Part shown: in pieces, positions 1-27,969 of the stretch
Position numbering within the stretch: the first letter of the stretch is position 1
Layout: each line of letters starts with the position of its first letter
NCBI GenBank assembly: GCA_014239585.1
Contig: JAAZYP010000003.1
Location: 1 to 32,997, forward strand
Direction: 5' to 3'
DNA: 32,997 nt
Source: Nanobdellota archaeon
GTDB taxonomy: Archaea > Nanobdellota > Nanobdellia > UBA10117 > ARS21
Program-made: the position numbers and the translations under genes
The notes under the pieces: generated by a model
Seen by the model: only the letters and a program-made list of their open reading frames with translations
Told to the model about the DNA's origin: nothing
The model's database searches: none

Positions 1-253
1 GCATAAATCTGAACCAACTAAACCATTTGAATTTAGAACCTTTAGGATCATATTGATAAACTAAAAATTTATTATGCGTATCTTGATATGTTGAAGTCCA
101 AATACTTGGCCATATCCCAGAAGAATATCCTAACAAAGTATCTAATTTCAAAAAAGATCCGTCCTTCTTCAATGAATTCATAAACGGAGTATTCGGACCA
201 ATATAATCGGGACGTACTGCATCCAAAAAGAAAATTAAAGTTTTACTTTTCAT
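1..253 (-). CDS. Alkaline phosphatase superfamily hydrolase/transferase (N-terminal part, cut by window edge)
   Basis: The gene starts at 253 and its first 84 codons run open to the window edge. It begins MKSKTLIFFLDAVRPDYIG, the usual first strand and metal-binding Asp (D11) of the alkaline phosphatase/phosphodiesterase/sulfatase fold. About 35 residues later comes a GYSSGIWPSIWTS segment, where this fold carries its Ser/Thr nucleophile. No signal peptide is visible, so the visible part looks cytoplasmic. It overlaps the upstream GT4 gene by ATGA, so it is the next cistron of the glycan operon. In such loci, members of this superfamily often add or remove phospho-groups on glycans; that role is inference here. 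The C-terminal half, with the remaining metal ligands, lies outside the window, so the exact subfamily cannot be fixed. Confidence 0.72.
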   Translation of the reverse strand, partial: MKSKTLIFFLDAVRPDYIGPNTPFMNSLKKDGSFLKLDTLLGYSSGIWPSIWTSTYQDTHNKFLVYQYDPKGSKFKWFSWFRFM

Positions 254-1236
254 TTTTTTAGTTTACCAAAAGCATTCTTAAACTTTACTGATTGAGATTT
301 ATCATTTATTTTTTCTGATTTAGATTTTAATGATTTTAGTAAGTTTAGTTTATCAGTATTACTCAAACTCATAAGTTCAATAATTTTATTTGATATATCA
401 ACTACACTTTTTTCATTACAAATAATTTTGGATTCAGTTAGTACCTCATTATTACCGTTTTTTCTACCAGTGATAGGTATTACTCCACTCAACGAATACT
501 CCAAACCATTGCATCCAAACGGCTCGAAATTTGAAACATTATATCCAATCAAACTATTATTTAATTCAGAATTAAGATTCTTAACAAATCCCTTAAACTC
601 AATTTTGACACCCAAATCTGATGCAAGTGACTTCAAATTATCTGAATTTCCTGGACCAATAAACACCAATCGACTTTCTGGAATTTTCATCTTAACTTTT
701 ACGAAAGCCTTAATCAATCGTTCGAGATTCTTTTCAGATGAAATTCTACCCACGTGAATAATTTGTTTAGAATTTAGATTTGGTTTAAATTTAAAGTTAT
801 TAACTTCCACTGGCGGATAAACAACTTCAGAATTAATTTTCAAATATTTTTTAATAGATTTAGCAGATAATACTGAATCCGAAATCACATAGTCGATTTT
901 ACCCAAGAATAAATTTAAAATTACCTTTTTCAAACCATTGAGATGGTTATAGTCCCGAAGAAATAGTAAATCGGCATCATGATAAATTATATTTATTTTT
1001 GGTCTCACGATTTTCAGTACGCTCGAGAAATAAACTCCTGACATACCCTCACATAGAAAATTTCCAGACGGATACTTAAAATAAAGATAAGGCAATCTCA
1101 AAAAAGTAAAAATTGGTATAAATATAATTGGAATATGATTAGGTATTGGCGTTATCAATTCCGAATTTACACTTTTTGCAAAAATTAGATGTGATCGGTG
1201 TGAATTAGGTACATTTTGAACAAAGTAATTTTTCAT
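250..1236 (-). CDS. GT4 family glycosyltransferase
   Basis: This 328-residue protein is a probable retaining GT-B glycosyltransferase of family GT4, transferring a sugar from a nucleotide donor to a growing lipid-linked glycan at the cytoplasmic face. The C-terminal domain has the typical VGRISSEKN segment (residues 162-170) and an E-x7-E motif (E238 and E246, in EPFGCNGLE) that binds the donor nucleotide. The N-terminal domain is somewhat short and carries a hydrophobic patch near residues 35-55, possibly for membrane association. It lies one base after the flippase stop codon and overlaps the next gene by four bases, so it is co-transcribed with the glycan operon. Donor and acceptor cannot be read from the sequence. 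Confidence 0.85.
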   Translation of the reverse strand: MKNYFVQNVPNSHRSHLIFAKSVNSELITPIPNHIPIIFIPIFTFLRLPYLYFKYPSGNFLCEGMSGVYFSSVLKIVRPKINIIYHDADLLFLRDYNHLNGLKKVILNLFLGKIDYVISDSVLSAKSIKKYLKINSEVVYPPVEVNNFKFKPNLNSKQIIHVGRISSEKNLERLIKAFVKVKMKIPESRLVFIGPGNSDNLKSLASDLGVKIEFKGFVKNLNSELNNSLIGYNVSNFEPFGCNGLEYSLSGVIPITGRKNGNNEVLTESKIICNEKSVVDISNKIIELMSLSNTDKLNLLKSLKSKSEKINDKSQSVKFKNAFGKLKK

Positions 1237-1237
1237 A

Positions 1238-2737
1238 TTAATTTTTTAGTTTATACAAATTTATAATATCATTTATTTGATTTATCGAAACAACTCTTAA
1301 AATAAATAATGATGCAATATAAATTACTCCTGATATTCCTACAACCGTAATCGTTTCAAGCCATATATTTGAAAACTCCAAATAATTTTTCAACAAATTT
1401 AATGTTCCGAGAAAGATGAATCCCGAAACAATTGAATATACTATTCCTTTAAAATCAATTGTTAATTCTTTAAATTTACGTGAAATGGCTCTAAAACTCA
1501 AAATACTCATTAGTGAATATCCAAATAAGGTAGATAGCGCTGCACCAACCAAACCATAAATTGGAATTAAAAATAAATTCAAACCGATATTAAAAATTGC
1601 TCCAATCGAAGTTATACGAAGATTTGATTTTGCCTTCTCTAACCCAATTAGAATATGAGTATTAATTACGAAAAATACAGATAACACCGAAGACAAACTT
1701 AAGATAGATAGTGCTTTTGCGGCAGGAAGATATTTATCTGTAAATAAAACCCGAATAACTAATTCCGGATAAACAATGAGTATCATTGCAATAGGCAATA
1801 ATAAAACAATATTTAATTTGTAAAGAACATTAACTAATTTATTCATAACTTCAAATTTTCGTTTAGAATACAATGATGCAGTTAAAGGAATCAAAATTAA
1901 AGTAAATGCGCTTGAGAAGAATAAAATTAATTTTGCAGTTGGAACCGCAACATTATACAGACCAACTTCTTCCAAATTTCTTAATGCAGTTAGCATAATT
2001 GTATCAGTATAATTCAAAACATAAACTCCAAACGCAAATAATACGTTCAGTAATGCAAATTTCTTAATTCTCGCATAATTCAAGGAAACATTAGTTATTT
2101 TTGTTTTTATTTTTTCCAAATGTTTAGCTTTAACTAAAAAATAAAAAATAAAACTCGGAATTGCATTTCCGATAAACAGTGCAAATATTGGGCTCCAAAT
2201 CCCAAATCCAAATAGTAGGAATAAATAAAGCAGTAAAAGTTGTACAATAATTTTAACTACCTCATAAAATGAATATAATTTTTGATCTTGAAAGGTCTGT
2301 AAAAGAGTATTTATGAAATTAAAGAAAATATCAATAAAGAAATAAACAAAACCCAGTGCGATAAATAAATAAAATGCAGCAACATCTCTGAAATAATAGG
2401 ACGATAAGAATTTTGAAGATAATAATACTAAGATCAAAAATAATATACCGTTTCTAATTTTATATCTCAAAAAATAATTAATCAATGAATTAAATTTCCC
2501 ATTTTTCCGTTTACTCAAAAATTCTGAACCAAATTTTTGAAATGCAGGAGAAATACCCATATCTATCATAGTAGTTGCAACCAAAAAGAAAGTTACAATA
2601 GAATAAAATAAACCATATTCATAAACGGTTAAATTCTGAATCAATAATAATCGATATAAAAATGCTAATGCTGCGGTAATTACAGTTGCACCACTTATCC
2701 AAATTCCACCACTTATCAATTTTCGTTTCAAACTCAT
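1238..2737 (-). CDS. Wzx-like oligosaccharide flippase (MOP superfamily)
   Basis: This 499-residue integral membrane protein has about 12-14 hydrophobic segments spread along its length. The N-terminus (KRKLISGGIWISGATVITA) followed by a segment with DMGISPAFQKF matches the start of polysaccharide biosynthesis/flippase proteins of the MOP (MATE-like) superfamily. The expected role is to move a lipid-linked glycan from the inner to the outer face of the membrane, where AglB could use it. It overlaps the GT9-like gene upstream by ATGA and is followed after one base by a GT4 gene. Its presence with aglB in one same-strand cluster supports a dedicated N-glycan or surface glycolipid pathway. Substrate specificity is not visible. 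Confidence 0.85.
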   Translation of the reverse strand: MSLKRKLISGGIWISGATVITAALAFLYRLLLIQNLTVYEYGLFYSIVTFFLVATTMIDMGISPAFQKFGSEFLSKRKNGKFNSLINYFLRYKIRNGILFLILVLLSSKFLSSYYFRDVAAFYLFIALGFVYFFIDIFFNFINTLLQTFQDQKLYSFYEVVKIIVQLLLLYLFLLFGFGIWSPIFALFIGNAIPSFIFYFLVKAKHLEKIKTKITNVSLNYARIKKFALLNVLFAFGVYVLNYTDTIMLTALRNLEEVGLYNVAVPTAKLILFFSSAFTLILIPLTASLYSKRKFEVMNKLVNVLYKLNIVLLLPIAMILIVYPELVIRVLFTDKYLPAAKALSILSLSSVLSVFFVINTHILIGLEKAKSNLRITSIGAIFNIGLNLFLIPIYGLVGAALSTLFGYSLMSILSFRAISRKFKELTIDFKGIVYSIVSGFIFLGTLNLLKNYLEFSNIWLETITVVGISGVIYIASLFILRVVSINQINDIINLYKLKN

Positions 2738-3561
2738 TTTAACACCTTAATTACTTTCTTGACAGATGGATTTTTAAGTTTTTTAACAATAACATCGCCC
2801 CAATTCAATATTTCAGAATTACTATTTAAAAATATGACCGCAGTATTTGTACCACTTGCAACCGCAACATGTGAAAATCCTGAATCGTTACCGATATACC
2901 AATCCAACTTAGATAATATTGCCGCAGATTTGCGTACAGATAATTTCCCCTTTACAAGATTAATTAGTTTATTTCCAAATTTAGATACAACTTCAGAATT
3001 ATATTTTGTATCATAACCCAGTAAGTATATTTCAAAATTTAATTTTATTAACTCAGAAATTAATGTAATATATTTATCGACTGACCAAGCTCTATCGATA
3101 GATCTGGATTCGATATTTATTCCAATCTTCGTTTTATTTGTGTTTTTTATATATTTATCTGAAGCCTTCAACTCATGTTTATTGAAATAGAATTTTGCTT
3201 TATTTGAAGGCAGATCTTCCTTTAGGATGGTTGGAGTACCAACCAAATTAGATAAAAACGAGAATAAATATTTGTTTTTTTGAGTAATGATGCATAAATC
3301 GTATTGTCTTATTTTATTTAATGCTGAAAGAATACATCCAAAGGATGCATAGATCTTTTCAAAAATAGAAATGTCCGTCGCTAGTATATCTAGGCGTTTA
3401 TCCACAATTAGTTTACCTGCTAACGGATTACCTGAATAACAATCCTTTATTATTGAACTTCCAATAACATCTGTTTTTTTACCAAAAGAGTGTAAAATTG
3501 AAGTTTCACGGATAGTGTCACCAACAATTCGTCCCCGAAAATTCCACATAACAACTTTCAT
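2734..3561 (-). CDS. GT9-like (heptosyltransferase family) glycosyltransferase, short form
   Basis: This 275-residue protein resembles family GT9 (ADP-heptose:LPS heptosyltransferases) but is shorter than the usual 330-370 residues. The N-terminal GRIVGDTIRETSIL segment matches the family's G-D signature, with D15 at the place of the catalytic Asp. The C-terminal half has the Rossmann core with WYIGNDSGFSHVAVASG, the family's conserved N-D-x-G-x-x-H donor-binding loop. It overlaps both neighbours by four bases. With the larger GT9 protein at 5785-6873, the locus encodes two GT9 members, so the glycan may contain two heptose or heptose-like residues. A different donor is possible because GT9 also covers non-heptose enzymes. 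Confidence 0.75.
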   Translation of the reverse strand: MKVVMWNFRGRIVGDTIRETSILHSFGKKTDVIGSSIIKDCYSGNPLAGKLIVDKRLDILATDISIFEKIYASFGCILSALNKIRQYDLCIITQKNKYLFSFLSNLVGTPTILKEDLPSNKAKFYFNKHELKASDKYIKNTNKTKIGINIESRSIDRAWSVDKYITLISELIKLNFEIYLLGYDTKYNSEVVSKFGNKLINLVKGKLSVRKSAAILSKLDWYIGNDSGFSHVAVASGTNTAVIFLNSNSEILNWGDVIVKKLKNPSVKKVIKVLK

Positions 3562-4209
3562 TTAATTCCAAAACCAAAACATACTTTCATTGAATTCATA
3601 ATTTTATTAAACGGAAAGTTAAATTCATCATTATCAAAGGTATTAAATTTAGTAAAGTTTGCCATATTAAAAAATCGTTTTAGCGATTCTTTATTATACG
3701 GTCTTATGTGAGTGGGATCATTATAAAATTCATAAGATGGTCTAGGTGTAAGGACAAACAATATTCCATTTTTTTTCAACATTTTTCTGGCCCGCTCAAA
3801 AAATACAGGAACATCCGATACGCTAAGATGTTCAATTAAATGTAAAGATACTATAAAATCAAATTTTTTAGAAGGTAATTTATCAGTAATTATGTTTTTA
3901 TTAATGAATTTTACATTTTTTGGAAGCATATTCTGGACGTTAGAAATATCCATCCCATACAATTCAGCGTTAGGTCGGACATTACGTATAAAATTTAAGA
4001 ATCCACCTTGAGCACAACCAATGTCTAATAATTTGATTTTACCCCCCCCCCCTTTGTTTGGAATTAGTCAGCAATTTATTCAAAATAAAGTAATATCTTG
4101 ATATAAACGGGCTTACAGACAAAATTTTAAATAAAATTTTTTTTAGAACACTCATCGGTTTATGATTAATAGAGTTATAATATTTTTCAGGATAAGATTC
4201 AAGACTCAT
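3558..4209 (-). CDS. Class I SAM-dependent methyltransferase, interrupted by frameshift at an 11-base G tract (possibly phase-variable)
   Basis: Two adjacent reading frames make one methyltransferase. The 5' part starts at ATG 4209 (ATGA overlap with the upstream GT4) and reads 52 residues into an 11-G tract (4042-4052), then hits TAA, giving a 56-residue product. After the tract, in another frame, the sequence continues KIKLLDIGCAQGGFL, the SAM-binding motif I, then VSLHLIEHL and a KNGILFVLTPRP strand typical of Methyltransf_11/23 proteins. With 10 G instead of 11, one open 216-residue protein results (…KQRGGGKIKLLDIGC…). The 3' part also has a possible TTG start at 3962, but that start would omit motif I and is unlikely to be functional. 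The likely job is O- or N-methylation of a sugar in the glycan. The frameshift could be a sequencing error or a real on/off switch; the rest of the gene shows no decay. Confidence 0.75.
4042..4052. repeat. Homopolymer tract of 11 C (G on the coding strand) inside the methyltransferase gene
   Basis: An uninterrupted run of 11 C on the plus strand lies inside the methyltransferase coding region, exactly where the reading frame breaks. It is exceptional in such an AT-rich window; I noticed no other G or C run approaching this length. Runs like this mutate by slipped-strand mispairing and underlie phase variation of surface-glycan genes in Campylobacter and Neisseria. They are also prone to length miscalls. 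Confidence 0.95.
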
Positions 4210-5339
4210 TTTATTAAAACACCCCTATACACTTTTAATATTTTGTTAGTCATAACAGCTAAAGTATGATTTTTATTTACCTTTGTGTAACCATTTAATC
4301 CAATTTTTTCCAAATGAGTTTTAGTCATATCTTTAATTTTCAAAATATATTTTGATAACACTTCAACATTTTTTGAAGGAATAACAAATCCATCCTTTCC
4401 TTGATAGATTAATGATTTATGCTCTCCAACATCAGTTACAAGAACAGGTAATTTTGCAGACCAAGCTTCAAGCAACGTTAAAGGTAAACCTTCAAATAAT
4501 GACGGAAGAATGAAACAATCTGACGAAACATAATAATTTTTCAATTTAGTATCGGATATTCTACCAGTGAATTTAACTAATTTATTCAATTTTAGCGTTT
4601 TAGATTTAGCTTGCAATTTATTGCTTTCAGGACCAGATCCGACGATAATAAATTCAACTCCATCCAACTTATTTTTAATTTGACTTAATGTGTCGAGTAA
4701 AATAGAAATCCCCTTCTGTGGATGCAGTCTACCAACAAATAAAAATCTAAATTTTTTAGAGCTCGTTTTAGTAATACCGCTAAATTTATTGACATCAATC
4801 GCGCTATGAATAACTTTAATTTTTTTATTCAAGTTTTTCATCTTGAAAAAAGTTCCATCAACACTAATTTCAGTATCATAAATTATTCCTGTCTGTAAAA
4901 ATCTTTCAAATATTCCTAGACCCAACGCAAACGGATTAAAACCATACATTTGAAAAATAGATTTTATTCCACTACCATGAACTGTATATACTATTGGAAT
5001 TCCTAAATATTTACTCATAATTTTTCCTGGTAAACCAGCTAAATTCGCATGAGCATGGATTAAATCATATTGTTTGGTTTTATTCAGTTTTTTAATTGCT
5101 CTACAAACATTAATACACCACTTCAATCGATTAATTATATTAAATTTTGATTTTGATTTACCTACTCGAATTACGTTAAAACCACCCAAGTTTGAAATCG
5201 TAGGTCTACCATCCAGATTCATAGTAAATAAATCGACATCATGACCTCTTTCCACCAACGTTCGAGATAAGTCAGAAGTATGTATTTGACCGCCTCCCCA
5301 TTGCGGTTTCCACGCATCAATCATCATACAAATTTTCAT
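4206..5339 (-). CDS. GT4 family glycosyltransferase
   Basis: This 377-residue GT-B glycosyltransferase of family GT4 has the N-terminal glycine-rich acceptor-domain signature WGGGQIHTSDLS (residues 14-25), the IHAHANLAG segment near 94-102, and VHGSG near 120. The C-terminal domain carries FVGRLHPQKG (201-210) and the E-x7-E donor-binding motif (E283 and E291 in EGLPLTLLE). Length and motif order are standard for the family. It sits between the heptose-phosphate nucleotidyltransferase and the methyltransferase genes, overlapping both by ATGA, so it belongs to the same operon and probably adds one sugar to the lipid-linked glycan. The donor sugar cannot be assigned from sequence. Confidence 0.9.
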   Translation of the reverse strand: MKICMMIDAWKPQWGGGQIHTSDLSRTLVERGHDVDLFTMNLDGRPTISNLGGFNVIRVGKSKSKFNIINRLKWCINVCRAIKKLNKTKQYDLIHAHANLAGLPGKIMSKYLGIPIVYTVHGSGIKSIFQMYGFNPFALGLGIFERFLQTGIIYDTEISVDGTFFKMKNLNKKIKVIHSAIDVNKFSGITKTSSKKFRFLFVGRLHPQKGISILLDTLSQIKNKLDGVEFIIVGSGPESNKLQAKSKTLKLNKLVKFTGRISDTKLKNYYVSSDCFILPSLFEGLPLTLLEAWSAKLPVLVTDVGEHKSLIYQGKDGFVIPSKNVEVLSKYILKIKDMTKTHLEKIGLNGYTKVNKNHTLAVMTNKILKVYRGVLIK

Positions 5340-5797
5340 TTTTTCATTTTTGATATTAAATCAGTGGTTGATTCAATTTTTTCTCCACTAAATAATATTT
5401 TTCCACCATATTTTTCCACAGATTCTCGTTCCAACAAATTTTCAGAATATTCGTTCCCTTTAACATGAATATTGGGTTTAATTATTTCTAACCAAGTTAA
5501 CGGAGTTTCTTCTTCAAAAACGAATGCGTAGTCAACACAATCCAATGCTGAAACTATCCGAACCCGTTTATTTTCAGAAATAATTGGTCTATCTTCAGAT
5601 TTGTATTTTTTAATTGATGAATCTGAATTCAAACCCACAATTAGAATGTCCCCTTGTTTTTTCGCGAATTCTAAATTGGATAAATGTCCCACATGTAACA
5701 TATCGAACGCACCGTTGGTAGTGACCAGTGTTTTAGATTCAGACCTCAGTTGCTTTACGAGTGATTCTAATTCAGATATATTAATTATTTTACCCAT
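5336..5797 (-). CDS. rfaE2: HldE C-domain type heptose-1-phosphate adenylyltransferase (stand-alone)
   Basis: This 153-residue nucleotidyltransferase matches the C-terminal half of bacterial HldE/RfaE, which makes ADP-D-glycero-beta-D-manno-heptose from the heptose 1-phosphate and ATP. Signature features are TTNGAFDMLHVGH (residues 26-38, with the H-x-G-H nucleotide motif), VGLNSDSS, an EDRPI segment, FEEETPL (94-100), and the closing STTDLI (143-148) that corresponds to the STT-x-I-I end of the family. Length agrees with stand-alone RfaE domain II proteins. It overlaps the GT9 gene by 13 bases and the following GT4 by four. The kinase half is encoded separately at 6863-7831. A cytidylyltransferase of the same fold with another substrate is possible, but the neighbours argue for heptose. 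Confidence 0.88.
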   Translation of the reverse strand: MGKIINISELESLVKQLRSESKTLVTTNGAFDMLHVGHLSNLEFAKKQGDILIVGLNSDSSIKKYKSEDRPIISENKRVRIVSALDCVDYAFVFEEETPLTWLEIIKPNIHVKGNEYSENLLERESVEKYGGKILFSGEKIESTTDLISKMKK

Positions 5798-6873
5798 AAT
5801 ATTTTTTTAGCCAACCGGACAATCTCCACAGGATTAATACGATTTATTCTTAAACCTCCATCTTCCTTAAATTCTTTCAAATGAACATTAATTAGAGGTC
5901 TGCCTTCGGATTTATATATGGAATGATTTTTTGAACCATATGGACTAAATCTAACTGGCGTATTTGGACCAAATAAACCGATTGTGGGTGTTCGCTGAGA
6001 AGCACCGACGTGCATCGGTCCAGTGTCATTTGAAATAACTAGATCTGATTTTGAAATCAAGCAAAATAAGTCTTTATTTTTTAATTTACCATTAGTGATT
6101 ATTGCCTTTGCATGATTCAATTCTGAATTTTTTAAGATAAGTTTATCATTTTCAATCTCTGAATTAGAATAACCTGTCAAAATGAAGCAAACATCTTTTC
6201 GATCTAATCGTTTCATAACTTTTGAAAAATTAATAGGAGACCAACATCTATTTTTATTTGTTGAACCAACACCACCGTGAATAATTATTTTTTTCTTATT
6301 TCCGATACCTTTCAATAAACGTTTAACTTTATTTTCAGAACCTAAACCATATTTAAGTTTTATCAGGTTTTTTGGAACAAAGTACTTTCCGATAGGTTTC
6401 ATCAGATCAAGAAATGTCAAAACAACATGTTGTTTATCATTGTAAATTATATTCGCATCCCATTTATCTTTACGGGAACAAGTATTGAATCCAATGGAGT
6501 AACCATTAATAAATTTAGCTAACCATAAAGATATGTTTACAAACGGTTCGGTATCAATGACAATATCATATTTATTTCGTAAAGATAAAATTTTTCTCAA
6601 ATCCTTTAATGGATTCAAGCTAATAATCTTCGATTTATTTATGAATTTTTGACCTAAGAATATATCTTTGTTAAATTTACTACATAATACGTCAACTTTG
6701 TAACCTTTCTTAGCTAGTTGAGAAATTAAAGGCAAAGTTAGAATACTTTCACCCATCGACCAAAGTCGAATGATTAGAATTCGCTTACCTTCCGGAAGGG
6801 ATTTGGAAGGAATCAAATCCAAAATGAAATTAAACTCTCCAATTAGATCATCTAAGATTTTTTTATTTTTCAT
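5785..6873 (-). CDS. GT9 family glycosyltransferase (heptosyltransferase-like)
   Basis: This 362-residue protein fits family GT9, which transfers L,D- or D,D-heptose from ADP-heptose. The N-terminal IIRLWSMGESILTLPLI segment aligns with the family's G-D-x-L-x-T-x-P start, but the residue at the catalytic Asp position is Glu (E42). The C-terminal domain shows HGGVGSTNKNRCWS (199-212), a TGYSNSE strand, and the ADP-binding loop VISNDTGPMHVGAS (279-292) followed by GLFGPNTP. It lies between the heptose kinase and the nucleotidyltransferase that would make its donor, overlapping both, which is strong context for heptose as the sugar. Acceptor unknown; it is presumably a dolichol-linked or lipid-linked glycan. 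Confidence 0.87.
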   Translation of the reverse strand: MKNKKILDDLIGEFNFILDLIPSKSLPEGKRILIIRLWSMGESILTLPLISQLAKKGYKVDVLCSKFNKDIFLGQKFINKSKIISLNPLKDLRKILSLRNKYDIVIDTEPFVNISLWLAKFINGYSIGFNTCSRKDKWDANIIYNDKQHVVLTFLDLMKPIGKYFVPKNLIKLKYGLGSENKVKRLLKGIGNKKKIIIHGGVGSTNKNRCWSPINFSKVMKRLDRKDVCFILTGYSNSEIENDKLILKNSELNHAKAIITNGKLKNKDLFCLISKSDLVISNDTGPMHVGASQRTPTIGLFGPNTPVRFSPYGSKNHSIYKSEGRPLINVHLKEFKEDGGLRINRINPVEIVRLAKKILWVK

Positions 6874-7831
6874 CAGTCAACTCTCTTTGAATTTCAATTA
6901 AAGATGTGCTTGCAGTTCCAGATTTAGATACAACCATCCCTGAACAAACATTAGCAAATTCTGATGAAAGTATAAAATCAGTATCTAAACTTGCTAAGAC
7001 AAATGCAGCTAATGCTGTATCTCCTGCACCACTAACATCTTTCAATTTTTTCTTATCAAAAATATCAATTTTTGTAGAGTTATTATTTTTGATTTCGTGA
7101 ATTAATGAACCTTTATTCCCTAAAGTTAGAAAGATATTGGAATTATATTTTTTCGATAAATTTAATGCAATTTCATCAACCTTCAATTCATTTCGTTGAA
7201 TACCTAAGGCCATCATTGCTTGCCTCAAATTAGGTTTTAGTAAATATACATTCTTAAACAAATCATATTTTTCAGGCTTTGAATCAACATAAATTGGCTT
7301 ATTTTTAGTTTTCAAATAATTAACAATTGACTCAGTAATAACGCCTTTTGCATAATCTGAAATTATAATTGCATCAATATCTTGAACGGAATCAATCATA
7401 TCCAAAATTTCTTTTTCAACATTACTGTCTACAATATTTCGAATCTTTTCAACATCTTTTCTTAATAAATGAGTATTTGATGCCACAAATCTCTTTTTGT
7501 GAGTTGTTGGAAAATTATCATAAATTAATCTATTTGTTATATTAAATTTATCCAAAAGAGAATTTATTTGTTTAGCACTATCGTCATTTCCTACAATACT
7601 AATTATTTCGACATTCGCACCCAAAGTACTAAGATTTAATGCAGAATTCCCTGCACCGCCCAACATATATTTGGAAGTATTTGGTTCAAATACTGGAACT
7701 GGAGCCTCAGGACTAATACGATTTGCAAAACCATAACAAAATTCATCAAGCATAATATCTCCAATTACTAAAATTTTTCTTTTACTGAAATTGTTTTTCT
7801 TAATAAAATTAAGAATTTTTGAATAATCCAT
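6863..7831 (-). CDS. rfaE1: HldE N-domain type heptose 7-phosphate kinase (PfkB/ribokinase family)
   Basis: This protein of about 322 residues matches the N-terminal kinase half of bacterial HldE/RfaE, which phosphorylates D-glycero-beta-D-manno-heptose 7-phosphate at C1. Numbering from an in-frame TTG two codons upstream, visible signatures are VIGDIMLDEF (24-33), the HldE hallmark ISPEAPVPVF (41-50), the sugar-binding MLGGAGNSALN (58-68), and the PfkB C-terminal motif DVSGAGDT (267-274) with catalytic Asp D273. I chose ATG 7831 over that TTG at 7837. It overlaps the end of gmhA by 23 bases and the next GT9 gene by 11. A PfkB-type kinase implies the beta-anomer, ADP-heptose branch rather than the GDP-heptose branch, which uses a GHMP kinase. 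Confidence 0.88.
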   Translation of the reverse strand: MDYSKILNFIKKNNFSKRKILVIGDIMLDEFCYGFANRISPEAPVPVFEPNTSKYMLGGAGNSALNLSTLGANVEIISIVGNDDSAKQINSLLDKFNITNRLIYDNFPTTHKKRFVASNTHLLRKDVEKIRNIVDSNVEKEILDMIDSVQDIDAIIISDYAKGVITESIVNYLKTKNKPIYVDSKPEKYDLFKNVYLLKPNLRQAMMALGIQRNELKVDEIALNLSKKYNSNIFLTLGNKGSLIHEIKNNNSTKIDIFDKKKLKDVSGAGDTALAAFVLASLDTDFILSSEFANVCSGMVVSKSGTASTSLIEIQRELTDEK

Positions 7832-8387
7832 CTTCAATATATTTACAAATAATATGAATTATCAAGATATGACTTTCTTGAATTCTCGCAGTATTCTCGT
7901 CATTAACAATTAAATTAACATCAACTAAATCTGAATCTTTCAAAATACCGCCATCTCGGCCATTTAATACGATCGTTAACATATCTTTAGCTCGAGCTTT
8001 TTCTAAGGCTTTAATAATATTTTTTGAATTTCCTGAAGTAGTCAATCCGATAAAGATATCGTCCTTTTTACCTAGCCCCTCTACTTGTTTTGAAAATACG
8101 CGCTCATATCCGTAATCATTAGAAATTGCAGTTAAATTAGTTAAATCGGAAGATAAACAAATACCGGGAAGTGCTTCTCGTTCCAACTCAAATCTACCTA
8201 ATAATTCACCTACAAAATGACTTGCTTGAGAAGAACTACCGCCATTTCCTGCAGCTAAGATTTTATTGCCATTTCTCAAAGCATGAACACACATTTGCCC
8301 AACTTTTTCTAAATCCGCAATAAATTCAGGAGTTAGTAATTTAGTTTTAACGTCAATACTCCGTCTAATTATTTTATCGATATTCAT
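7809..8387 (-). CDS. gmhA: Sedoheptulose 7-phosphate (phosphoheptose) isomerase GmhA
   Basis: This 192-residue SIS-domain protein has the length and motif pattern of GmhA, the first committed enzyme of heptose biosynthesis (sedoheptulose 7-phosphate to D-glycero-D-manno-heptose 7-phosphate). It shows AGNGGSSSQASHF (46-58), then ELLGRF with E61 at the place of the catalytic Glu, a TTSGNS phosphate loop (116-121), LNGRDGG, and a helix with Q170, H173 and H178 that matches the QxxHxxxxH active-site helix of E. coli GmhA. A good TATA box lies about 26 bases upstream and a GAGGG purine stretch lies between, so this gene probably opens its own transcription unit for the heptose genes. The kinase follows with a 23-base overlap. 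Confidence 0.92.
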   Translation of the reverse strand: MNIDKIIRRSIDVKTKLLTPEFIADLEKVGQMCVHALRNGNKILAAGNGGSSSQASHFVGELLGRFELEREALPGICLSSDLTNLTAISNDYGYERVFSKQVEGLGKKDDIFIGLTTSGNSKNIIKALEKARAKDMLTIVLNGRDGGILKDSDLVDVNLIVNDENTARIQESHILIIHIICKYIEDGLFKNS

Positions 8388-8419: not shown

Positions 8420-9097
8420 TTATGATTTAGCACCAAATCTCAATTTTATCAATTTATATAAAACTTCAATTGATCTTATAATTGTATTTCCGCCCTTATT
8501 AATTGTATCGGCAGAATAACGAATATTTACTGGAATTTCGCTATACTTAAGTCCATTCTCTTTAATCCGATATATAATCTCAGAGGCATGAGCCATACCG
8601 TTCTCGTTAATTTTTATCTTACGTGCAGCATTTGAATTAAATGCCCTAAAACCGTTATGCGCATCACTAAGTTTTATTCCAAGAAAAATTCTTTCAACCA
8701 AGATACTGCCTTTCAACAGAATCTTGCGTTTCAAAGGCAATTTCGTCTTTTTCAAGAAACGAGAGCCTAATACTACATCATAACCAGTATTAATTTTTTT
8801 TATAAATTTTTTAATTTCACTAGCCCTGTGCTGTCCATCAGCATCAAAAGTTACAATTATATCTGATTCTGAATCTAATGCGGATTTGATGCCGATTCTA
8901 ATTGATGCACCTTGTCCCAAGTTAGTTTTATTATTGATTAATTTAACTTTCCCAAATTTCTTTACTATTTTTGAAGTATTATCTGACGAACCATCATTAA
9001 CAACTATAATTTGATAAGGGTATTTTAACAATTTTTTCAAAACTTTTCCAATTCGATTTTCTTCATTGAAAGCAGGTATAACAACTGTTGTTTTCAT
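8420..9097 (-). CDS. GT2 family glycosyltransferase (DPM1/polyprenyl-phosphate sugar transferase-like)
   Basis: This 225-residue GT-A enzyme of family GT2 starts TVVIPAFNEENRIGKVL and carries VVNDGSSDNT (32-41), NLGQGASIRIGI, and the metal-binding D-x-D in TFDADGQH (D85, D87), followed by VLGSRF. The HNGFRAFN segment and overall length are typical of dolichol-phosphate mannose synthase-like enzymes without the C-terminal membrane domain. Such enzymes either charge dolichyl phosphate with a sugar or add a sugar to a lipid-linked glycan. It overlaps aglB by four bases, which ties it to protein N-glycosylation. No membrane helix is evident, so the soluble form probably binds the membrane peripherally. 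The sugar is not known. Confidence 0.88.
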   Translation of the reverse strand: MKTTVVIPAFNEENRIGKVLKKLLKYPYQIIVVNDGSSDNTSKIVKKFGKVKLINNKTNLGQGASIRIGIKSALDSESDIIVTFDADGQHRASEIKKFIKKINTGYDVVLGSRFLKKTKLPLKRKILLKGSILVERIFLGIKLSDAHNGFRAFNSNAARKIKINENGMAHASEIIYRIKENGLKYSEIPVNIRYSADTINKGGNTIIRSIEVLYKLIKLRFGAKS

Positions 9098-17812: not shown

Positions 17813-18418
17813 CTACAGTTCACCAGTATAATCAATTTGATCAGATTTATAACTTACATTATAAATTTTACTGGTATTTGAAGTTTCATTAACAAAAATA
17901 TTTTTTTCTCGGTAATTGTTAACAAATATTTTACTTGGACTAACTGAAATATTTTCAGATTTAATTATCGTCCCATTCACAGTATTAGTGAAGGGTAAAC
18001 TTGATCCACTTGCCAAAGGAGACAGTGAATAATAAATATAAAATTCTTTACACTTATTTCCATCAAAATTAAATTCAGAAGGTTTGATAAAAATCCAACA
18101 ACTACTCGTACTAATATACACTAGTTCTTCAGAATAAATATCATTACATTCAGCTTTGGGAGTTATGTTTATACTTGTATTCACGTAATCTGTTTCACTA
18201 GTATCTGAAACACAAATACCAATTTTTCTTCTAGTATCAAAATTAATATTAACCCAATTATCTGGAACTGATCGGCCATATGCGTTTTTGTAATTATCAA
18301 ATTCCAAATCAGTTCCCGATTCAATTCTTAATTCTTCGGAACTGTTTGCATAAGCTAGTGAAACAATTAATATTACTGCAATCACCACAATGCTCGAAAT
18401 AAAAAATTGACCCTTCAT
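17813..18418 (-). CDS. Pilin-like protein with class III leader (minor pilin, function unknown)
   Basis: This 201-residue protein starts MKGQFFISSIVVIAVILIVSLAYA: a very short positive leader with Gly3 as the likely prepilin peptidase site, followed by one hydrophobic helix. The rest is extracellular, with five cysteines scattered over about 65 residues and eight N-x-S/T sequons (for example NTS, NIT, NGT, NET, NVS), so heavy N-glycosylation by AglB is plausible. It is the last gene of the ATPase/platform operon and overlaps the preceding gene by ATGA. I do not recognise the globular domain. A role as a minor pilin or pseudopilin is inferred from the leader and context. Confidence 0.72.
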   Translation of the reverse strand: MKGQFFISSIVVIAVILIVSLAYANSSEELRIESGTDLEFDNYKNAYGRSVPDNWVNINFDTRRKIGICVSDTSETDYVNTSINITPKAECNDIYSEELVYISTSSCWIFIKPSEFNFDGNKCKEFYIYYSLSPLASGSSLPFTNTVNGTIIKSENISVSPSKIFVNNYREKNIFVNETSNTSKIYNVSYKSDQIDYTGEL

Positions 18419-18789
18419 AGTTTACTCCAAACATACAATCTCAAAATTGACCACTGTGCTGTTGAATCACGATAAGCATATTCTGCATAACTCAAATCTT
18501 GATTTCCGAGTGCAGAAATATCAGGAGTTCCGCTAGTCAAATAAAATCCAAAGTTATCAGGCAGATATGAATCAATAAAATATTCAACAAATACTGAATT
18601 GTAAGCTGCATCATCGCCAATAATGTTATGGTTGTGTAATTCACGCAATAAATCATATGCAATTAATGAATTAATCTCAACAGTTCTATCTTGATTTAGT
18701 GAGGTAACTTGTAATGAAGTAAACAAACTAAATGCCAAAATTACTGCAAAAATTATCTCAATGAAATATACATAACCGCGTTTGTTCAT
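18415..18789 (-). CDS. Small pilin-like protein with class III leader
   Basis: This 124-residue protein begins MNKRGYVYFIEIIFAVILAF. The KRG/Y junction (Gly5) is a likely prepilin peptidase site, with a Glu at position +6, close to the conserved Glu of type IV pilins, and a single hydrophobic helix. The remaining 95 residues are soluble, without cysteines, and include conserved-looking aromatic residues near the end (LRLYVWSKL). It overlaps both neighbours by ATGA inside the ATPase/platform operon. It resembles small pseudopilins in size and layout, but I do not recognise a named family. Pilus or pseudopilus subunit is inference. Confidence 0.7.
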   Translation of the reverse strand: MNKRGYVYFIEIIFAVILAFSLFTSLQVTSLNQDRTVEINSLIAYDLLRELHNHNIIGDDAAYNSVFVEYFIDSYLPDNFGFYLTSGTPDISALGNQDLSYAEYAYRDSTAQWSILRLYVWSKL

Positions 18790-19805
18790 GTTGAAATTAC
18801 TTTAACCTCCCCAATAAAATTTCGAGTAATATTAACTTCCCTTTGCTCACCAAAAATACTCTGATTTATCAAAAATGAATTATCATCCTCAATTTTGTAA
18901 AGTCGTTTATATTCACAACCTTCTGCGACAGGAGTACCCCAAGTTAATTTAGCCAAAGTATCATTTCCTAAATAAATCGGATAATCTTTATCAAGATCTT
19001 TATTAGTAAATGATATATCACGAATAAAAACTAAATTATTATTTCGTTGAATATCATTTATTGCTTGAAAATTTGGACCATATCTTGTCCAATCCTCATC
19101 CCAATCAGCATGAGTTGAAGTATCAGTTGTGTAGGAAATATATCTATGATCGCAACCATTTCCAATTGTAGATTCATAATTTACGACCAAACCGTAATCC
19201 TTTTGCGTATAAGTAATGGTATCGCCACCGCCTGAATGACCGCAATACCCTGAATTTGTATAACTTTTAACCAGAGTACCATTTGGAAAAACCATTTCCA
19301 ATTTTAAATATACTAAATTTGGATCTGAAATGTTTTTTGCAGAAGCAATTCCAATGGTATTATGAACGATACTATTGTTATACGAAGTATAATTTAACCA
19401 AATTTGTGCAACAGGTGAATTACGTCCAGCATGTTCAATATCAGCGCGTTTGGTAGAGTAAGCAGATTGAACATCGAAACCCTTTATTTCATAAGCCAAC
19501 TGAAAAGAATCAGTTTTGTTGGTATCATTATTATAATTTGATAAATTTTTATTATCGTAAAGATATTTCAGTGAAGCATAATTTACCGTTGAATTTTCTG
19601 CACTGACACCGTATTTTGAAACTTTAACTTCATTATCAACTAACTCTTTGAATATCCGCTCTGCAGTTTCACAAGATTCATGATCTTGAGCAAGACTTAA
19701 TTCTTCAGCAGTAATTAAAATAACTCTATCCACGATACCAACAAATAAAATTAGAAAAAAGAAAGTTACTATAATATATTCTCCAACAACATAACCCTTT
19801 TTCAT
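18786..19805 (-). CDS. Large pilin-like protein with class III leader, rich in glycosylation sequons
   Basis: This 339-residue protein begins MKKGYVVGEYIIVTFFFLIL. Cleavage after Gly4 would leave Glu at +5, the canonical position in type IV pilins, within a single hydrophobic helix. The extracellular part carries eleven N-x-S/T sequons (such as NST, NLS, NDT, NKT, NYT, NIS, NQS), an unusually high density, and a few cysteines. It overlaps the upstream platform gene by one base (TAATG) and the downstream pilin-like gene by ATGA. It probably acts as a minor pilin or pseudopilin of the adjacent secretion/pilus machine and is a strong candidate substrate of AglB. The globular domain is unrecognised. 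Confidence 0.72.
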   Translation of the reverse strand: MKKGYVVGEYIIVTFFFLILFVGIVDRVILITAEELSLAQDHESCETAERIFKELVDNEVKVSKYGVSAENSTVNYASLKYLYDNKNLSNYNNDTNKTDSFQLAYEIKGFDVQSAYSTKRADIEHAGRNSPVAQIWLNYTSYNNSIVHNTIGIASAKNISDPNLVYLKLEMVFPNGTLVKSYTNSGYCGHSGGGDTITYTQKDYGLVVNYESTIGNGCDHRYISYTTDTSTHADWDEDWTRYGPNFQAINDIQRNNNLVFIRDISFTNKDLDKDYPIYLGNDTLAKLTWGTPVAEGCEYKRLYKIEDDNSFLINQSIFGEQREVNITRNFIGEVKVIST

Positions 19806-20947
19806 TAGCTAATTACTCTAATCGTTCTAACGAAATTTTTAGTGTCCTTATCGTGTTCGATAGTTATACGAATATCATATTCTCCTGCCTGTTCAGGCGT
19901 AGTCCAAAAATATCTAAATTCCCCTGAATTATCTGTAAATATTTGTTTGGGAAGTCCAGTATTATCTGTAATTATTACTGTAGCTCCCGCAACAGGTGCC
20001 CCCTCCGAAAAGGTTTTCCCAGTAATTGTTATCATACTATCGATTGGTGCTTCACTAGGAAAGACTGATATTTCGACAGATAATTCTGAAGGAAATACAA
20101 ATACAAAGAAAATAAATATACTTGCTGAAACCATTATCAAAATATGCTTTATTCCTGCAACCAATTTTTCTTCAGCGATAATTCCTGCAATAAATCCAGC
20201 ACAAATCGCCTCTATTAAAGTCATTAGAAAGAATAAGTTTCGAAAGTATTCAATTGTTAATTTAGCGCCACCTTCTTGAATACCGATCCCGGAAAATGAA
20301 CCAATCTGCTGAACATAAAGTATTGGAGATAATATCTTGTAAAGTGCAATAATAACTCCAACGAATACAAAGAAAATAATATACATGACAATAATTTGTT
20401 GATGCATAATTGATTTTCTTTCAGATTCCATATCTTTGATAATATTAACATCTTCCGCAAGAGAACCAAGCGTCTTTTTTACATCTCCGCCACTATGAAA
20501 TGCCTCTAAGATAATGGCATTAACTCGGCGGATTAATTGACTTTTGGCAAGACGATTTGTAAATTTTTCCCAAGCTTTAGGAAATGCCTGATTCCAAGAT
20601 AACCAAATATTTAATTGTTTGATATGTTTTGTAAGTTTCCCATAATTTGTTTTACTTGCAACTGAAATTGCTTGAGGTAAAGTCATTCCCGCAGATGCAG
20701 ATTGAGATAAATCTTCCAAAAAATGTGGAAATTGATCTTCCGCAGATTTAATTTCTTCAAATTCTTTAAATGAAATCCAAATTGAAGGTACAACAACAAT
20801 TATTAATCCGATTGAAATTAATGCAATAATTGTGGTGCTGCTTCCACCGAGTAAAAATGCGCCCAGTGCCAAAATAAATGGAACTGGCAAAGCCAGGACT
20901 GTGTAAAACAATTTCTTATCTTTCATTAATTCTTTTATTCTGCCCAT
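19805..20947 (-). CDS. T2SSF/TadC-like pilus platform protein with fused C-terminal Ig-like domain
   Basis: This 380-residue membrane protein has helices near residues 14-34 and 38-58, then a cytoplasmic type II secretion F (T2SSF) domain with FLEDLSQSASAGMTLPQAI (77-95), AFHSGGDVKKTL (149-160) and the basic RKSIMHQQIIVMYIIFF, and four or so further helices up to residue 286. This is the inner-membrane platform protein of a type IV pilus or secretion system. Unlike FlaJ it contains one T2SSF domain; the other is in the adjacent gene (20935-21804, 13-base overlap). The last 90 residues form a beta-rich Ig-like or carboxypeptidase-regulatory-like module (ITGKTFSEGAPVAGATVII, then a DNSGEF turn), an unusual addition expected to face outwards. 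Confidence 0.85.
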   Translation of the reverse strand: MGRIKELMKDKKLFYTVLALPVPFILALGAFLLGGSSTTIIALISIGLIIVVVPSIWISFKEFEEIKSAEDQFPHFLEDLSQSASAGMTLPQAISVASKTNYGKLTKHIKQLNIWLSWNQAFPKAWEKFTNRLAKSQLIRRVNAIILEAFHSGGDVKKTLGSLAEDVNIIKDMESERKSIMHQQIIVMYIIFFVFVGVIIALYKILSPILYVQQIGSFSGIGIQEGGAKLTIEYFRNLFFLMTLIEAICAGFIAGIIAEEKLVAGIKHILIMVSASIFIFFVFVFPSELSVEISVFPSEAPIDSMITITGKTFSEGAPVAGATVIITDNTGLPKQIFTDNSGEFRYFWTTPEQAGEYDIRITIEHDKDTKNFVRTIRVIS

Positions 20948-21804
20948 GGTGATGAACTCTTAATTAGTAATATTACTCCAGTAGTTATTAATGGTAATCC
21001 TGCAAAAATCGTTAGATAATGCAGTAATTTAATTGTTGATACTGAAACTCCACCAACTGCACCCATTAGCGATGAGACAACAATGAAGAAAATAGTACCT
21101 ACAATAATTATTGTGATATATAAATTCATTAACAAAGTTAGAGTTTTTCCAAATGCCTCAAGTTTTCGTTTATATTCGTGAACAAAACCTATTGATTTTT
21201 CATTAAGATATTTGTCTAAATCTCCGCCAACTTCAATACTGTTTTTAATTCCGGCTAAAAATTCAGTCCATTCAGGAGACGGTGAACGTTTGATTGCACG
21301 ATCTAAAGATGTTTTCAAATCCATACCTAATTTATTAACTTCATGATCAATTTTCCTGGCCTCATCTGCAGCAGTAGGATAATCTTTGAAATTACCTAAT
21401 AATCCAAATATTTTTTGAGGTTCAAACCCTGATTTCGATAGTGTAGACATATAGATTGAAACAAAAGCAAGTGAATTTTCAATTTTCTCTTTCTTTTCAG
21501 AAATTACAAAAGAAGGATACAAATAGATAAATCCACCAACCAATATTCCGATAAAAATTGCAACAAATAAATTCATTAAAATTCCAATTAAACTAAAACC
21601 GACCGTAAGAAGACCGATTAGTGTAAGAAATAAAAATGAAACTGCAAAACTGCTCAACGTTAAGAATAAAATTAGTGAACCATATGCTTCAATTGGAACT
21701 TTTATTCTAGCAATCTTTAATTTTGGTTCAATTAATTTAAAATATTTCTTGTTATTCTTAACTATCTTACCAAACAATTTATTCGCGCGACCATAAATAT
21801 TCAT
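20935..21804 (-). CDS. T2SSF/TadB-like pilus platform protein
   Basis: This 289-residue membrane protein carries one T2SSF domain. A basic start is followed by two or three helices (about 40-115), a cytoplasmic T2SSF domain with SLAFVSIYMSTLSKSGFEP (a TadB/FlaJ-like motif), the SIEVGGDLDKYLNEKS segment, and then two to three C-terminal helices. It follows the ATPase gene with an ATGA overlap and precedes the second platform gene. Together the two correspond to the two halves of archaeal FlaJ or to bacterial TadB/TadC. The expected role is coupling ATPase movements to pilin extraction from the membrane. Confidence 0.85.
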   Translation of the reverse strand: MNIYGRANKLFGKIVKNNKKYFKLIEPKLKIARIKVPIEAYGSLILFLTLSSFAVSFLFLTLIGLLTVGFSLIGILMNLFVAIFIGILVGGFIYLYPSFVISEKKEKIENSLAFVSIYMSTLSKSGFEPQKIFGLLGNFKDYPTAADEARKIDHEVNKLGMDLKTSLDRAIKRSPSPEWTEFLAGIKNSIEVGGDLDKYLNEKSIGFVHEYKRKLEAFGKTLTLLMNLYITIIIVGTIFFIVVSSLMGAVGGVSVSTIKLLHYLTIFAGLPLITTGVILLIKSSSPWAE

Positions 21805-23468
21805 TTTTTCATCAAATCAAATACTGCATTGGGATGAACATAATACATTTTGATAATTTTAGATACTTCATCAAATCGAGTAATTTCCGATTCACTCATC
21901 CATTTCAAAATATTTGCTCGTCTCATAACTTCTTCTAAAATTGTTGATGCATCTTTAGCATGAGTTTCAGAAATTTTAGATAGTATGAAACTTTCATGTT
22001 TTTCGAAGTCATCAGTTGCAGGATTCCAAATAATTGCATCATTAACTTTCAATTCCTTATTTTTTGCATCGAATCCTTCAATTTCAACAATTTTAGCAAG
22101 TTTTCTAAAGAATTTTCCTTCACGTTTTATTTTTTCTAAGAAAATAATTAAATCCAGATTCTGTAAAACAGATAAAGGTAATTCAATTGGAGGAGTAGAT
22201 AATCTATCTATAACTGCAGCAGTACTATCGGCGTGTATCGTAGATAATCCCGGATGACCTGTGGCCATAGCCTGAAATAATACTTCAGCTTCAACACCTC
22301 GAACTTCGCCTACAATCAGATAATCTGGTCGTTGTCGCATAGAAGATTTCAATAATTGATGCATGTCAATCTCACCATATTTGCTTGGTCCAAATCCTGC
22401 ACGGGTTACTTGAGGCAACCAATTCGTGTGAGGTAGTTGAAGTTCAGCAGTATCCTCAATCGAAACAATTTTGTCATTTGGTCTAATGAAGAGTGAAACT
22501 GCATTCAAAAAAGTAGTTTTACCTGTTGCAGTTGATCCCGCAATCAAGATTGATTTTTCCCGTTCAATTGCGAACCACAAATATGCTAGTGTTATTGCAT
22601 CAACAGTACCAAATTTCATCAAATCTACTGGACTTAGCGGCGTTTTGAAGAACTTTCTAATTGTAAAATTGCTTCCACGTCGAGCAATATCAGTACCATA
22701 TGTAATTTGAATTCTTGAACCATCTTCCAAAGAACCATCCATAAGCGGATTTGCAACAGAAATAGATCGATTCGCTTTTTGAGCTAATTTCATACAGAAT
22801 GAATCCAATTCCTCTTTAACTTCAAATTTTATATTTGTGGCCATCTCACCATAAAGTGGATTTCGATGAAATATAAAAATCGGGAGACCGACACCATCAC
22901 AACTTATATCTTCAATATTTGGATCCATCATTAATGCATCAATCTTATCTAAACCAATTGTTTGTCTAAACACATAATATTTCATTTTTAGTCCATATTC
23001 AATGGACGGAGTAACACCAATTTTTGACCAAATACCGTCAATTTTTTTATTTAAGTACTCATAAATTTCAGTTTTATCAGTTAATTTTCCAAAATCCATA
23101 TCTAAATTTTCATGTAATTCTTCAACAGTTCGATTGGTCAATTCTTGCGAATTTTCATCTAATATTGGTTCAGATAAAGTATATATCAAGGTTTGATGTT
23201 CAGGATTAAATTTTATGTTAGTATAAGCTAAACTTGTCGATTTTCCGTCCAAAGTTGCACTAATTAATGAATAAGTTTCATCAACAGATTTTAATTCTTC
23301 AGCAATATTTTCAGAACTTTCTTTATGTTTGAGATGTTCATTTGGAAGTTGAATTCTCAGTGTTTTTTCGATTTCTTCATCAATTTTTATTTTTGGAGTA
23401 ACTTCTTCAGACGGGATTGGTTTTTTTCGAAATTTATTAAGCATACGGAGAGCCTCAGGATTAGCCAT
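21801..23468 (-). CDS. Type II/IV secretion (pilus assembly) ATPase, GspE/TadA/FlaI family
   Basis: This hexameric-type ATPase of about 555 residues powers pilus or secretion. Numbering from an ATG two codons upstream (23474), an N-terminal region of about 160 residues precedes the core; then come IEDISCDG (187-194), ISVANPLMDGSLEDGSR, Walker A GSTATGKTT (313-321), the Asp box with EDTAELQLP, a Walker B-like RPDYLIVGEVRG (382-393) and the His box GHPGLSTIHAD (406-416), all standard for the archaeal GspE/VirB11 group. I prefer ATG 23468 because a TATA box centred near 23492 lies about 24 bases from it but only 18 from 23474. It is the first gene of a six-gene operon with the two platform proteins and three pilin-like proteins. 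Confidence 0.92.
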   Translation of the reverse strand: MANPEALRMLNKFRKKPIPSEEVTPKIKIDEEIEKTLRIQLPNEHLKHKESSENIAEELKSVDETYSLISATLDGKSTSLAYTNIKFNPEHQTLIYTLSEPILDENSQELTNRTVEELHENLDMDFGKLTDKTEIYEYLNKKIDGIWSKIGVTPSIEYGLKMKYYVFRQTIGLDKIDALMMDPNIEDISCDGVGLPIFIFHRNPLYGEMATNIKFEVKEELDSFCMKLAQKANRSISVANPLMDGSLEDGSRIQITYGTDIARRGSNFTIRKFFKTPLSPVDLMKFGTVDAITLAYLWFAIEREKSILIAGSTATGKTTFLNAVSLFIRPNDKIVSIEDTAELQLPHTNWLPQVTRAGFGPSKYGEIDMHQLLKSSMRQRPDYLIVGEVRGVEAEVLFQAMATGHPGLSTIHADSTAAVIDRLSTPPIELPLSVLQNLDLIIFLEKIKREGKFFRKLAKIVEIEGFDAKNKELKVNDAIIWNPATDDFEKHESFILSKISETHAKDASTILEEVMRRANILKWMSESEITRFDEVSKIIKMYYVHPNAVFDLMKK

Positions 23469-23487
23469 GTGCATTATACTCGTCCAG

Positions 23488-23496
23488 ATTATATAT
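23488..23496 (-). promoter_or_regulatory. Predicted TATA box for the pilus ATPase operon
   Basis: The minus strand reads ATATATAAT just after the stop of the upstream pilin-like gene, about 24 bases before ATG 23468. It supports separate transcription of the ATPase operon and the shorter start. Visual call. Confidence 0.5.
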
Positions 23497-23500
23497 GTTT

Positions 23501-23962
23501 TTAGTTAATTTTAATGCCTGAGGTGTTCGAGGTTAAAGTATATTTTCCGCCCGATAGTGAAGAAGGAATGATAAACAAGTTAGTATCAATATCTTTACTG
23601 AATATGGTTTTTGATAAAGTAAATCGCTGTTTGGCATCCTTTGTTATAATAATTTGATCATTATCTGAATAACCACCTTTATTATTGGAAGTTCCATCTG
23701 CACGAAGAGTAATTGTGTAAAAATCTTCACCCAAACGAGTAGGTATATTTCGAGTAATTTCAATTTTTCCGCTAGTATTCAAACTTTCGATATAATAAAT
23801 ATCCGTTTCAATTTTTTCAATAATACTATTTATTTCAAGTTCAGCCAATAAATCTGTGTTTGCATCCTTTATCGATAAATTCCAAACCAAAATAATTCCA
23901 AATATTGCTAAACTTATTACTGTCAAAATACCTAAATAAAAAACACTTACTTGCCCTTTCAT
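23501..23962 (-). CDS. Pilin-like protein with class III leader (unknown)
   Basis: This 153-residue protein begins MKGQVSVFYLGILTVISLAIFG, a short positive leader with Gly3 as the likely cleavage site and a single hydrophobic helix, followed by a soluble domain rich in beta-type sequence and without cysteines. It overlaps the upstream pilin-like gene by ATGA and is the last gene before the ATPase operon. The similarity of the leader to the protein at 17813-18418 (MKGQ start) suggests a shared processing route. I do not recognise the domain; minor pilin is the best inference. Confidence 0.68.
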   Translation of the reverse strand: MKGQVSVFYLGILTVISLAIFGIILVWNLSIKDANTDLLAELEINSIIEKIETDIYYIESLNTSGKIEITRNIPTRLGEDFYTITLRADGTSNNKGGYSDNDQIIITKDAKQRFTLSKTIFSKDIDTNLFIIPSSLSGGKYTLTSNTSGIKIN

Positions 23963-26405: not shown

Positions 26406-26440
26406 AAATATTCAAGCTTATTTTTAGTTAAATAATTATC

Positions 26441-27489: not shown

Positions 27490-27506
27490 GGATTAAGTAT
27501 TGTTTA

Positions 27507-27516
27507 TTTATATAAA
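27507..27516 (-). promoter_or_regulatory. Predicted TATA box for the minus-strand pilin operon
   Basis: The minus strand reads TTTATATAAA about 22-23 bases before the pilin ATG at 27489, a strong archaeal TATA match. The transcript would have little or no leader. Confidence 0.6.
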
Positions 27517-27520
27517 AACC

Positions 27521-27937: not shown

Positions 27938-27960
27938 AACTACACTATAACTCGTTTAGT

Positions 27961-27969
27961 AATAAATAT
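27961..27969 (-). promoter_or_regulatory. Predicted TATA box for the coiled-coil gene
   Basis: The minus strand reads ATATTTATT about 28 bases before the coiled-coil gene's ATG in the divergent intergenic region. It is AT-rich enough to be a TATA box, but the match is only moderate. Confidence 0.35.

Follow-up and report, generated by a model that had tools for sequence, protein, structure and literature searches.

Heptose-activation genes beside aglB in a Nanobdellota archaeon and their possible part in N-glycosylation

Gene content and organization of the locus

Heptose, usually taught as a sugar of bacterial lipopolysaccharide (LPS), is recognized in humans by the receptor ALPK1. Genes for its activation are described here from a 32,997-nucleotide stretch of DNA, referred to as the window, from a Nanobdellota archaeon (lineage Nanobdellia; UBA10117; ARS21; GenBank assembly GCA_014239585.1, contig JAAZYP010000003.1, positions 1 to 32,997). 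Genes for GmhA, a PfkB kinase, a family 9 glycosyltransferase (GT9) and a nucleotidyltransferase fill positions 5336–8387 on the minus strand, as proposed in an earlier note made from the sequence alone, and, judged by their predicted products, these genes beside aglB very probably make an activated heptose.

The order of transcription is aglB, a family 2 glycosyltransferase (GT2) gene, gmhA, kinase, GT9, nucleotidyltransferase, a family 4 glycosyltransferase (GT4), a methyltransferase, a second GT9, a Wzx-like flippase, and a further GT4 (Table 1). From aglB through the downstream GT4, nearly all of these genes overlap or abut, forming an operon-like run. The GT2 gene overlaps aglB by 4 bases and separates it from gmhA, which the earlier note had placed directly after aglB; the note was correct that the kinase and nucleotidyltransferase are split genes and not an HldE fusion, and that a second GT9-like gene and a flippase gene lie downstream. 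The GT9 gene stands between the kinase and nucleotidyltransferase genes. The GT2 product was matched by the PpgS model NF058614 (1e-47) and the AglJ model TIGR04182 (1.5e-23), both under their cut-offs. AglB/STT3 with its WWDYG motif, together with the adjoining GT2 and GT4 genes, identifies an N-glycosylation locus, and this aglB is the only copy found, with one tblastn match in the 443,919 bases read of the organism's own genome (21 contigs, 86.7% complete).

Table 1. Features of the window, in order of transcription where they belong to the aglB run.
Feature	Position	Strand	Evidence and remarks
AglB/STT3 oligosaccharyltransferase, 824 aa	9094..11568	-	WWDYG motif; TIGR04154 2e-30, under its cut-off
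GT2 glycosyltransferase, polyprenyl-phosphate-sugar synthase/AglJ-like	8420..9097	-	PF00535 4e-30
GmhA, sedoheptulose-7-phosphate isomerase, 192 aa	7809..8387	-	TIGR00441 2.1e-58
HldA-type heptose-7-phosphate kinase (PfkB)	6863..7837	-	TIGR02198 9.2e-77; TTG start, alternative ATG at 7831
GT9 glycosyltransferase, presumed heptosyltransferase, LWxxGE type	5785..6873	-	PF01075 1.1e-24
HldC-type heptose-1-phosphate nucleotidyltransferase, 153 aa	5336..5797	-	TIGR02199 9e-47
GT4 glycosyltransferase	4206..5339	-	PF00534 8e-38; 4-base overlap with the nucleotidyltransferase gene
Class I methyltransferase gene, frame broken	3558..4209	-	PF13489 on the open reading frame 3558-3962
11-G run in the methyltransferase gene	4042..4052		
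Second, short GT9-like gene, 275 aa	2734..3561	-	PF01075 1.7e-14
Wzx/MOP-type flippase	1238..2737	-	PF01943 2.5e-16
GT4 glycosyltransferase	250..1236	-	PF00534 2.7e-22
Long series of pilin- or archaellin-like genes, secretion-type ATPase, membrane proteins	17813..31062		named from sequence

Identity of the three heptose enzymes

The top NCBIfam models for the three enzymes are gmhA, rfaE_dom_I and rfaE_dom_II, each well ahead of neighbouring families. Among solved structures, GmhA is best matched by the Campylobacter phosphoheptose isomerase 1tk9 (170.6 bits) and the kinase by Burkholderia HldA, 4e84 (118.8 bits; runner-up 31), whereas the best relative of the nucleotidyltransferase is 5x9q, whose PDB title reads putative cytidylyltransferase and which we take to be Burkholderia HldC. 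Active sites were compared in alignments of 38 to 59 archaeal and 10 to 80 bacterial rows, depending on the family. In GmhA, an SIS-fold enzyme, the catalytic residues Glu, Gln and His are retained in window, archaeal and bacterial rows; the final His distinguishes GmhA from DiaA. Likewise, the kinase keeps the motifs RISPEAPV, LRxD and GAGDT, and the nucleotidyltransferase keeps HxGH and STT. The names GmhA, HldA-type and HldC-type are thus supported by profiles, solved relatives and active-site residues, in agreement with the identities given in the earlier note. Probe sequences of Escherichia coli HldE, GmhA and TktA are approximate (the HldE probe is 93.6% identical to a Salmonella record), and the argument does not rest on them.

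Nucleotidyltransferases of the STTR5 type are described as promiscuous, also making CDP- and UDP-heptose (cytidine and uridine diphosphate heptose), in a summary of archaeal work (PMC11461863). The window enzyme is not of this type because it has no Arg close to the STT motif, and the nucleotide coupled to the sugar is most likely adenosine monophosphate (AMP), giving an adenosine diphosphate (ADP) donor.

An archaeal GT9 clade and its linkage to AglB

The window GT9 scores 87.6 bits against PF01075 (cut-off 22); its closest solved relative is 3tov, followed by WaaC, and the donor-site motif D-[TS]-G-x-x-H is present as SNDTGPMH. In the GT9 tree, it falls with the GT9 of another genome of the same family (G003) and all 12 AglB-adjacent GT9s described below in one all-archaeal clade of 30 rows with a Shimodaira–Hasegawa-like approximate likelihood ratio test (SH-aLRT) value of 99; one row labelled as bacterial (L169) is a Nanoarchaeota record. 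The Asp of the N-terminal GD motif is the general base in WaaC, and in the window GT9 this residue is replaced by Glu. The resulting LWxxGE sequence is found in the window GT9 and in 11/11 readable AglB-adjacent GT9s, compared with Glu in 12/33 other readable archaeal GT9s (Fisher p 2e-4); Glu in place of the usual Asp marks the AglB-adjacent GT9s as a subfamily.

Neighbourhoods of heptose loci were examined up to 20 kb, with genes classed by profiles seeded from the window and from G003. AglB lies no more than about 10 kb away in 19 of the 62 heptose loci, the window included, where 1 to 4 would be expected by chance if AglB occurs in 2–6% of random 20-kb stretches. In 12 of the 19, genes for AglB, GT2 and GT9 follow in series on one strand, with family labels including f54, f20, f80, f64 and f8; a full example (L098) reads AglB-GT2-DUF2304-GT9-gmhA-x-hldA-gmhB-hldC.

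Two further features of L098 recur in related loci. The DUF2304 membrane protein gene (3956–4288), placed between the AglB-adjacent GT2 and GT9 genes, has similar small counterparts in about 22 loci, and a protein of the GSU2086 family, function not assigned (6907–7830; NF052581, 414 bits), has similar genes in 13 loci and sits between gmhA and the kinase, a position often held by HldD in other loci.

Distribution across the phylum and form of the sugar

In the GT9-carrying relative G003, gmhB, GT9, gmhA and hldE, the last as a fused gene, lie consecutively; the only other two genomes of the family examined, G001 and G002, have neither the nucleotidyltransferase nor GT9. Weak TIGR02199 matches in G004, G006 and G007, of the same order, were taken as other nucleotidyltransferases and omitted. 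In a phylum sample of 371 genomes, 96 carry the nucleotidyltransferase, 88 the kinase, 80 GmhA, 100 GmhB and 116 GT9. Kinase and nucleotidyltransferase occur jointly in 70 genomes (22.8 expected), kinase and GT9 in 78 (27.5 expected), and nucleotidyltransferase and GT9 in 79 (30.0 expected), with matches spanning many family labels; p-values for this co-occurrence overstate certainty, related genomes not being independent. Furthermore, GT9 is present in 38 of the 39 genomes with GmhA, kinase and nucleotidyltransferase.

Fusions of pathway genes vary in the phylum, joining kinase and nucleotidyltransferase, GmhB and nucleotidyltransferase, GmhA and kinase, or GmhA and nucleotidyltransferase (L103, L104, L105–L110, L113, L117, L123, L131–L133).

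Of the 80 positive genomes, 14 carry an HldD that exceeds its curated cut-off and 41 an HldD-like short-chain dehydrogenase/reductase (SDR) at E ≤ 1e-45, whose coordinates often place it between gmhA and the kinase. Since HldD is present in only some heptose-positive genomes, the pathway probably occurs in the phylum in a D,D as well as an L,D version. In the window, HldD and GmhB are both lacking, as the earlier note observed, and the remainder of the assembly likewise gave no convincing match to either; these absences, and that of transketolase discussed below, hold for the assembled sequence, from which about 13% of the genome is missing. For HldD, the own genome yielded no match at E ≤ 1e-45, its best SDR, at 112 bits where the cut-off is 274.6, being judged GalE-like. 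Because no HldD was found, the sugar would stay in the D,D form, and this is consistent with the D,D-heptose donor that the earlier note anticipated.

Origin of the genes

The pathway was described as bacterial-type in the earlier note. A tree of 139 kinases places the window enzyme among heptose kinases, in a phylum-specific archaeal clade of 59 rows (SH-aLRT 99) where it is joined by 54 proteins of its own phylum, one from a named Nanoarchaeota and three from bacteria. Most bacterial kinases, from a set picked by similarity to the window protein, fall outside it. Within the clade, the window branch is long and the G003 enzyme is not the nearest relative. The GmhA and nucleotidyltransferase trees group the window proteins with archaeal rows, but the support is not strong. 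A recent import from bacteria is thus not borne out by the kinase tree, the other two trees being too weakly resolved, and an old presence of the kinase in the phylum appears better supported. The window itself is archaeal, as its further genes for a subunit of the thermosome and for pilin- or archaellin-like proteins show; bacterial contamination was ruled out by the thermosome and aglB genes on the contig, the close G+C content (0.299 in the heptose genes and 0.317 in the window), and the archaeal clades of kinase and GT9.

The methyltransferase gene and its 11-G tract

The methyltransferase gene begins at an ATG that overlaps the end of the GT4 gene, and 11 consecutive G residues shift its frame. 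No other G/C run in the 443,919-base genome reaches 8, and across about 1 Mb of related glycan loci such runs extend to at most 9. Slippage in the tract could switch glycan methylation on and off; alternatively, the tract may reflect a sequencing error, or the gene may be decaying.

A proposed route and the alternatives

From the enzyme families, the gene linkage and the conserved active sites, we infer a route in which GmhA would convert sedoheptulose 7-phosphate into D-glycero-D-manno-heptose 7-phosphate, the HldA-type kinase would phosphorylate C1, a phosphatase not found in the assembly would remove the C7 phosphate, and the HldC-type enzyme would add the nucleotide to give ADP-D-glycero-D-manno-heptose. 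GT9, perhaps with the second GT9, would then place heptose onto a lipid-linked glycan built by the GT2 and GT4 enzymes, the flippase would turn this glycan outward, and AglB would attach it to asparagines of surface proteins. We consider it reasonably probable that the locus makes this donor and that GT9 adds heptose to the glycan transferred by AglB.

Several observations weigh against this proposal. The profile scores of the three enzymes lie below the curated NCBIfam cut-offs: 196.7 bits against 209.5 for GmhA, 258.2 against 345 for the kinase, and 158.5 against 181.5 for the nucleotidyltransferase, which moreover has Ile-Glu-STT instead of the consensus G-x-STT. Both features would fit a set that acts on another sugar phosphate, with a donor other than manno-heptose, yet the heptose-family models and structures clearly give the best matches, with ribokinase and glycerol-3-phosphate cytidylyltransferase far behind, and clusters of the same phylum contain GmhB and, in the 14 genomes noted above, HldD, so that we hold another substrate to be very improbable.

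Next, heptose need not be the substrate of a GT9, and glycan genes cluster generally, so that neighbourhood alone is no proof of heptose on the AglB glycan. Activated heptose might instead serve a Wzx-flipped surface polymer or glycolipid made independently of AglB, the nearness of aglB reflecting a shared glycan island. The Wzx-like flippase and the several GT4 and GT9 genes in the same run agree with such a polymer, as does the lack of any AglB seen in 43 of the 62 heptose loci, some of the stretches covered being short. The same-strand AglB-GT2-GT9 order is, however, repeated in 12 loci to whose clade the window GT9 belongs, and the only aglB copy found overlaps the GT2 gene of this run; the AglB-independent polymer is accordingly regarded as unlikely.

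Finally, parts of the pathway are missing. GmhB (TIGR00213) gave no match even at E ≤ 10 in the 86.7%-complete genome, and tblastn probes for transketolase and transaldolase gave nothing convincing in it, so that a detectable source of sedoheptulose 7-phosphate is lacking, which is the main biochemical gap. A PF13242 match (C11:215282) considered as a GmhB substitute is a generic HAD protein (TIGR02253 family, under cut-off), possible and unsupported. As to the ADP-heptose pathway claimed in the earlier note, its GmhA, kinase and nucleotidyltransferase steps were thus recovered, while GmhB was not found in the same genome, nor was HldD, which is needed only for L,D-heptose.

These gaps, together with the long kinase branch and the broken frame of the neighbouring methyltransferase, would fit a decaying or incomplete cassette that yields no donor in this species unless a partner cell supplies metabolites. 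Decay is rendered quite improbable by the catalytic residues, all kept in the three enzymes and GT9, and by the open, tightly packed genes, and the missing part of the genome further weakens it. In addition, a GmhB match is missing in 7 of the 39 genomes with GmhA, kinase and nucleotidyltransferase, including six other than the present one, among them G108 (95% complete) and G141 (92% complete); this genome is therefore not alone in having lost a dedicated GmhB. Mutants of E. coli gmhB still produce some heptose, and therefore another phosphatase can stand in. For the starting compound, subunits N and C of transketolase and a TalC-like transaldolase/aldolase are encoded beside heptose genes in two relatives (1170–4169 in L136, genome G213; 11094–13711 in L103, genome G236), an arrangement that fits sedoheptulose 7-phosphate and would supply it locally.

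Taken with AglB beside heptose cassettes in 18 other loci, the locus makes heptose likely as a part of surface glycans in these cells, as the earlier note had suggested for a surface or N-linked glycan, with GmhB and transketolase unaccounted for. The pilin- or archaellin-like proteins encoded further along the window are likely targets of surface glycosylation. A wider reading is put forward tentatively, at a little under an even chance: AglB N-glycans of the phylum (probably DPANN Nanobdellota) would carry manno-heptose through a dedicated archaeal GT9 subfamily, with D,D-heptose in the present organism and methylation perhaps switched by slippage in the 11-G tract.

Relation to known systems and biological meaning

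The window genes belong to the same families, with the same conserved active sites, as the bacterial ADP-heptose pathway (GmhA, HldE or HldA plus HldC, GmhB, HldD; WaaC/WaaF). Unlike the bacterial pathway, the locus has aglB and no LPS genes, its kinase and nucleotidyltransferase are split around a GT9 gene, and no GmhB or HldD was found; the GT9 differs from WaaC/WaaF in its separate archaeal clade and in having Glu where Asp is usual.

In archaea, enzymes of nucleoside diphosphate (NDP)-heptose synthesis, of the same families as those of the window, were reported to be active and to form ADP-heptose in vitro (Tang et al., 2024, Science, summarised in PMC11461863); in contrast to the present locus, that summary links them to neither a glycan nor AglB. 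An ADP-heptose cluster near N-glycosylation genes, with heptose possibly placed on surface-layer protein, was reported for Iplasma of the Thermoplasmatales (Yelton et al., 2013; PMC3750248), another lineage, for which a full L,D-heptose pathway was reported. Furthermore, ADP-heptose clusters lie inside a glycan biosynthesis region in Methanococcus maripaludis KA1 and JJ (2025; PMC12667266); these cassettes are strain-variable, and the portion of that article at hand does not describe a GT9 clade beside AglB. No direct report of heptose with AglB in this phylum, or of DPANN heptose glycans, was found in open-licence literature. Three elements appear to be new: the recurring operon of AglB, GT2, GT9 and heptose genes, the clade of archaeal GT9s, and the window's reduced version with its split genes.

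If archaea of the phylum do attach heptose to proteins by way of AglB, the range of sugars in archaeal N-glycans would widen, archaeal heptose enzymes known only from assays would gain a function, and a testable glycosyltransferase subfamily would be named. More speculatively, surface heptose glycans could affect host attachment and virus encounters of these probably host-dependent cells.

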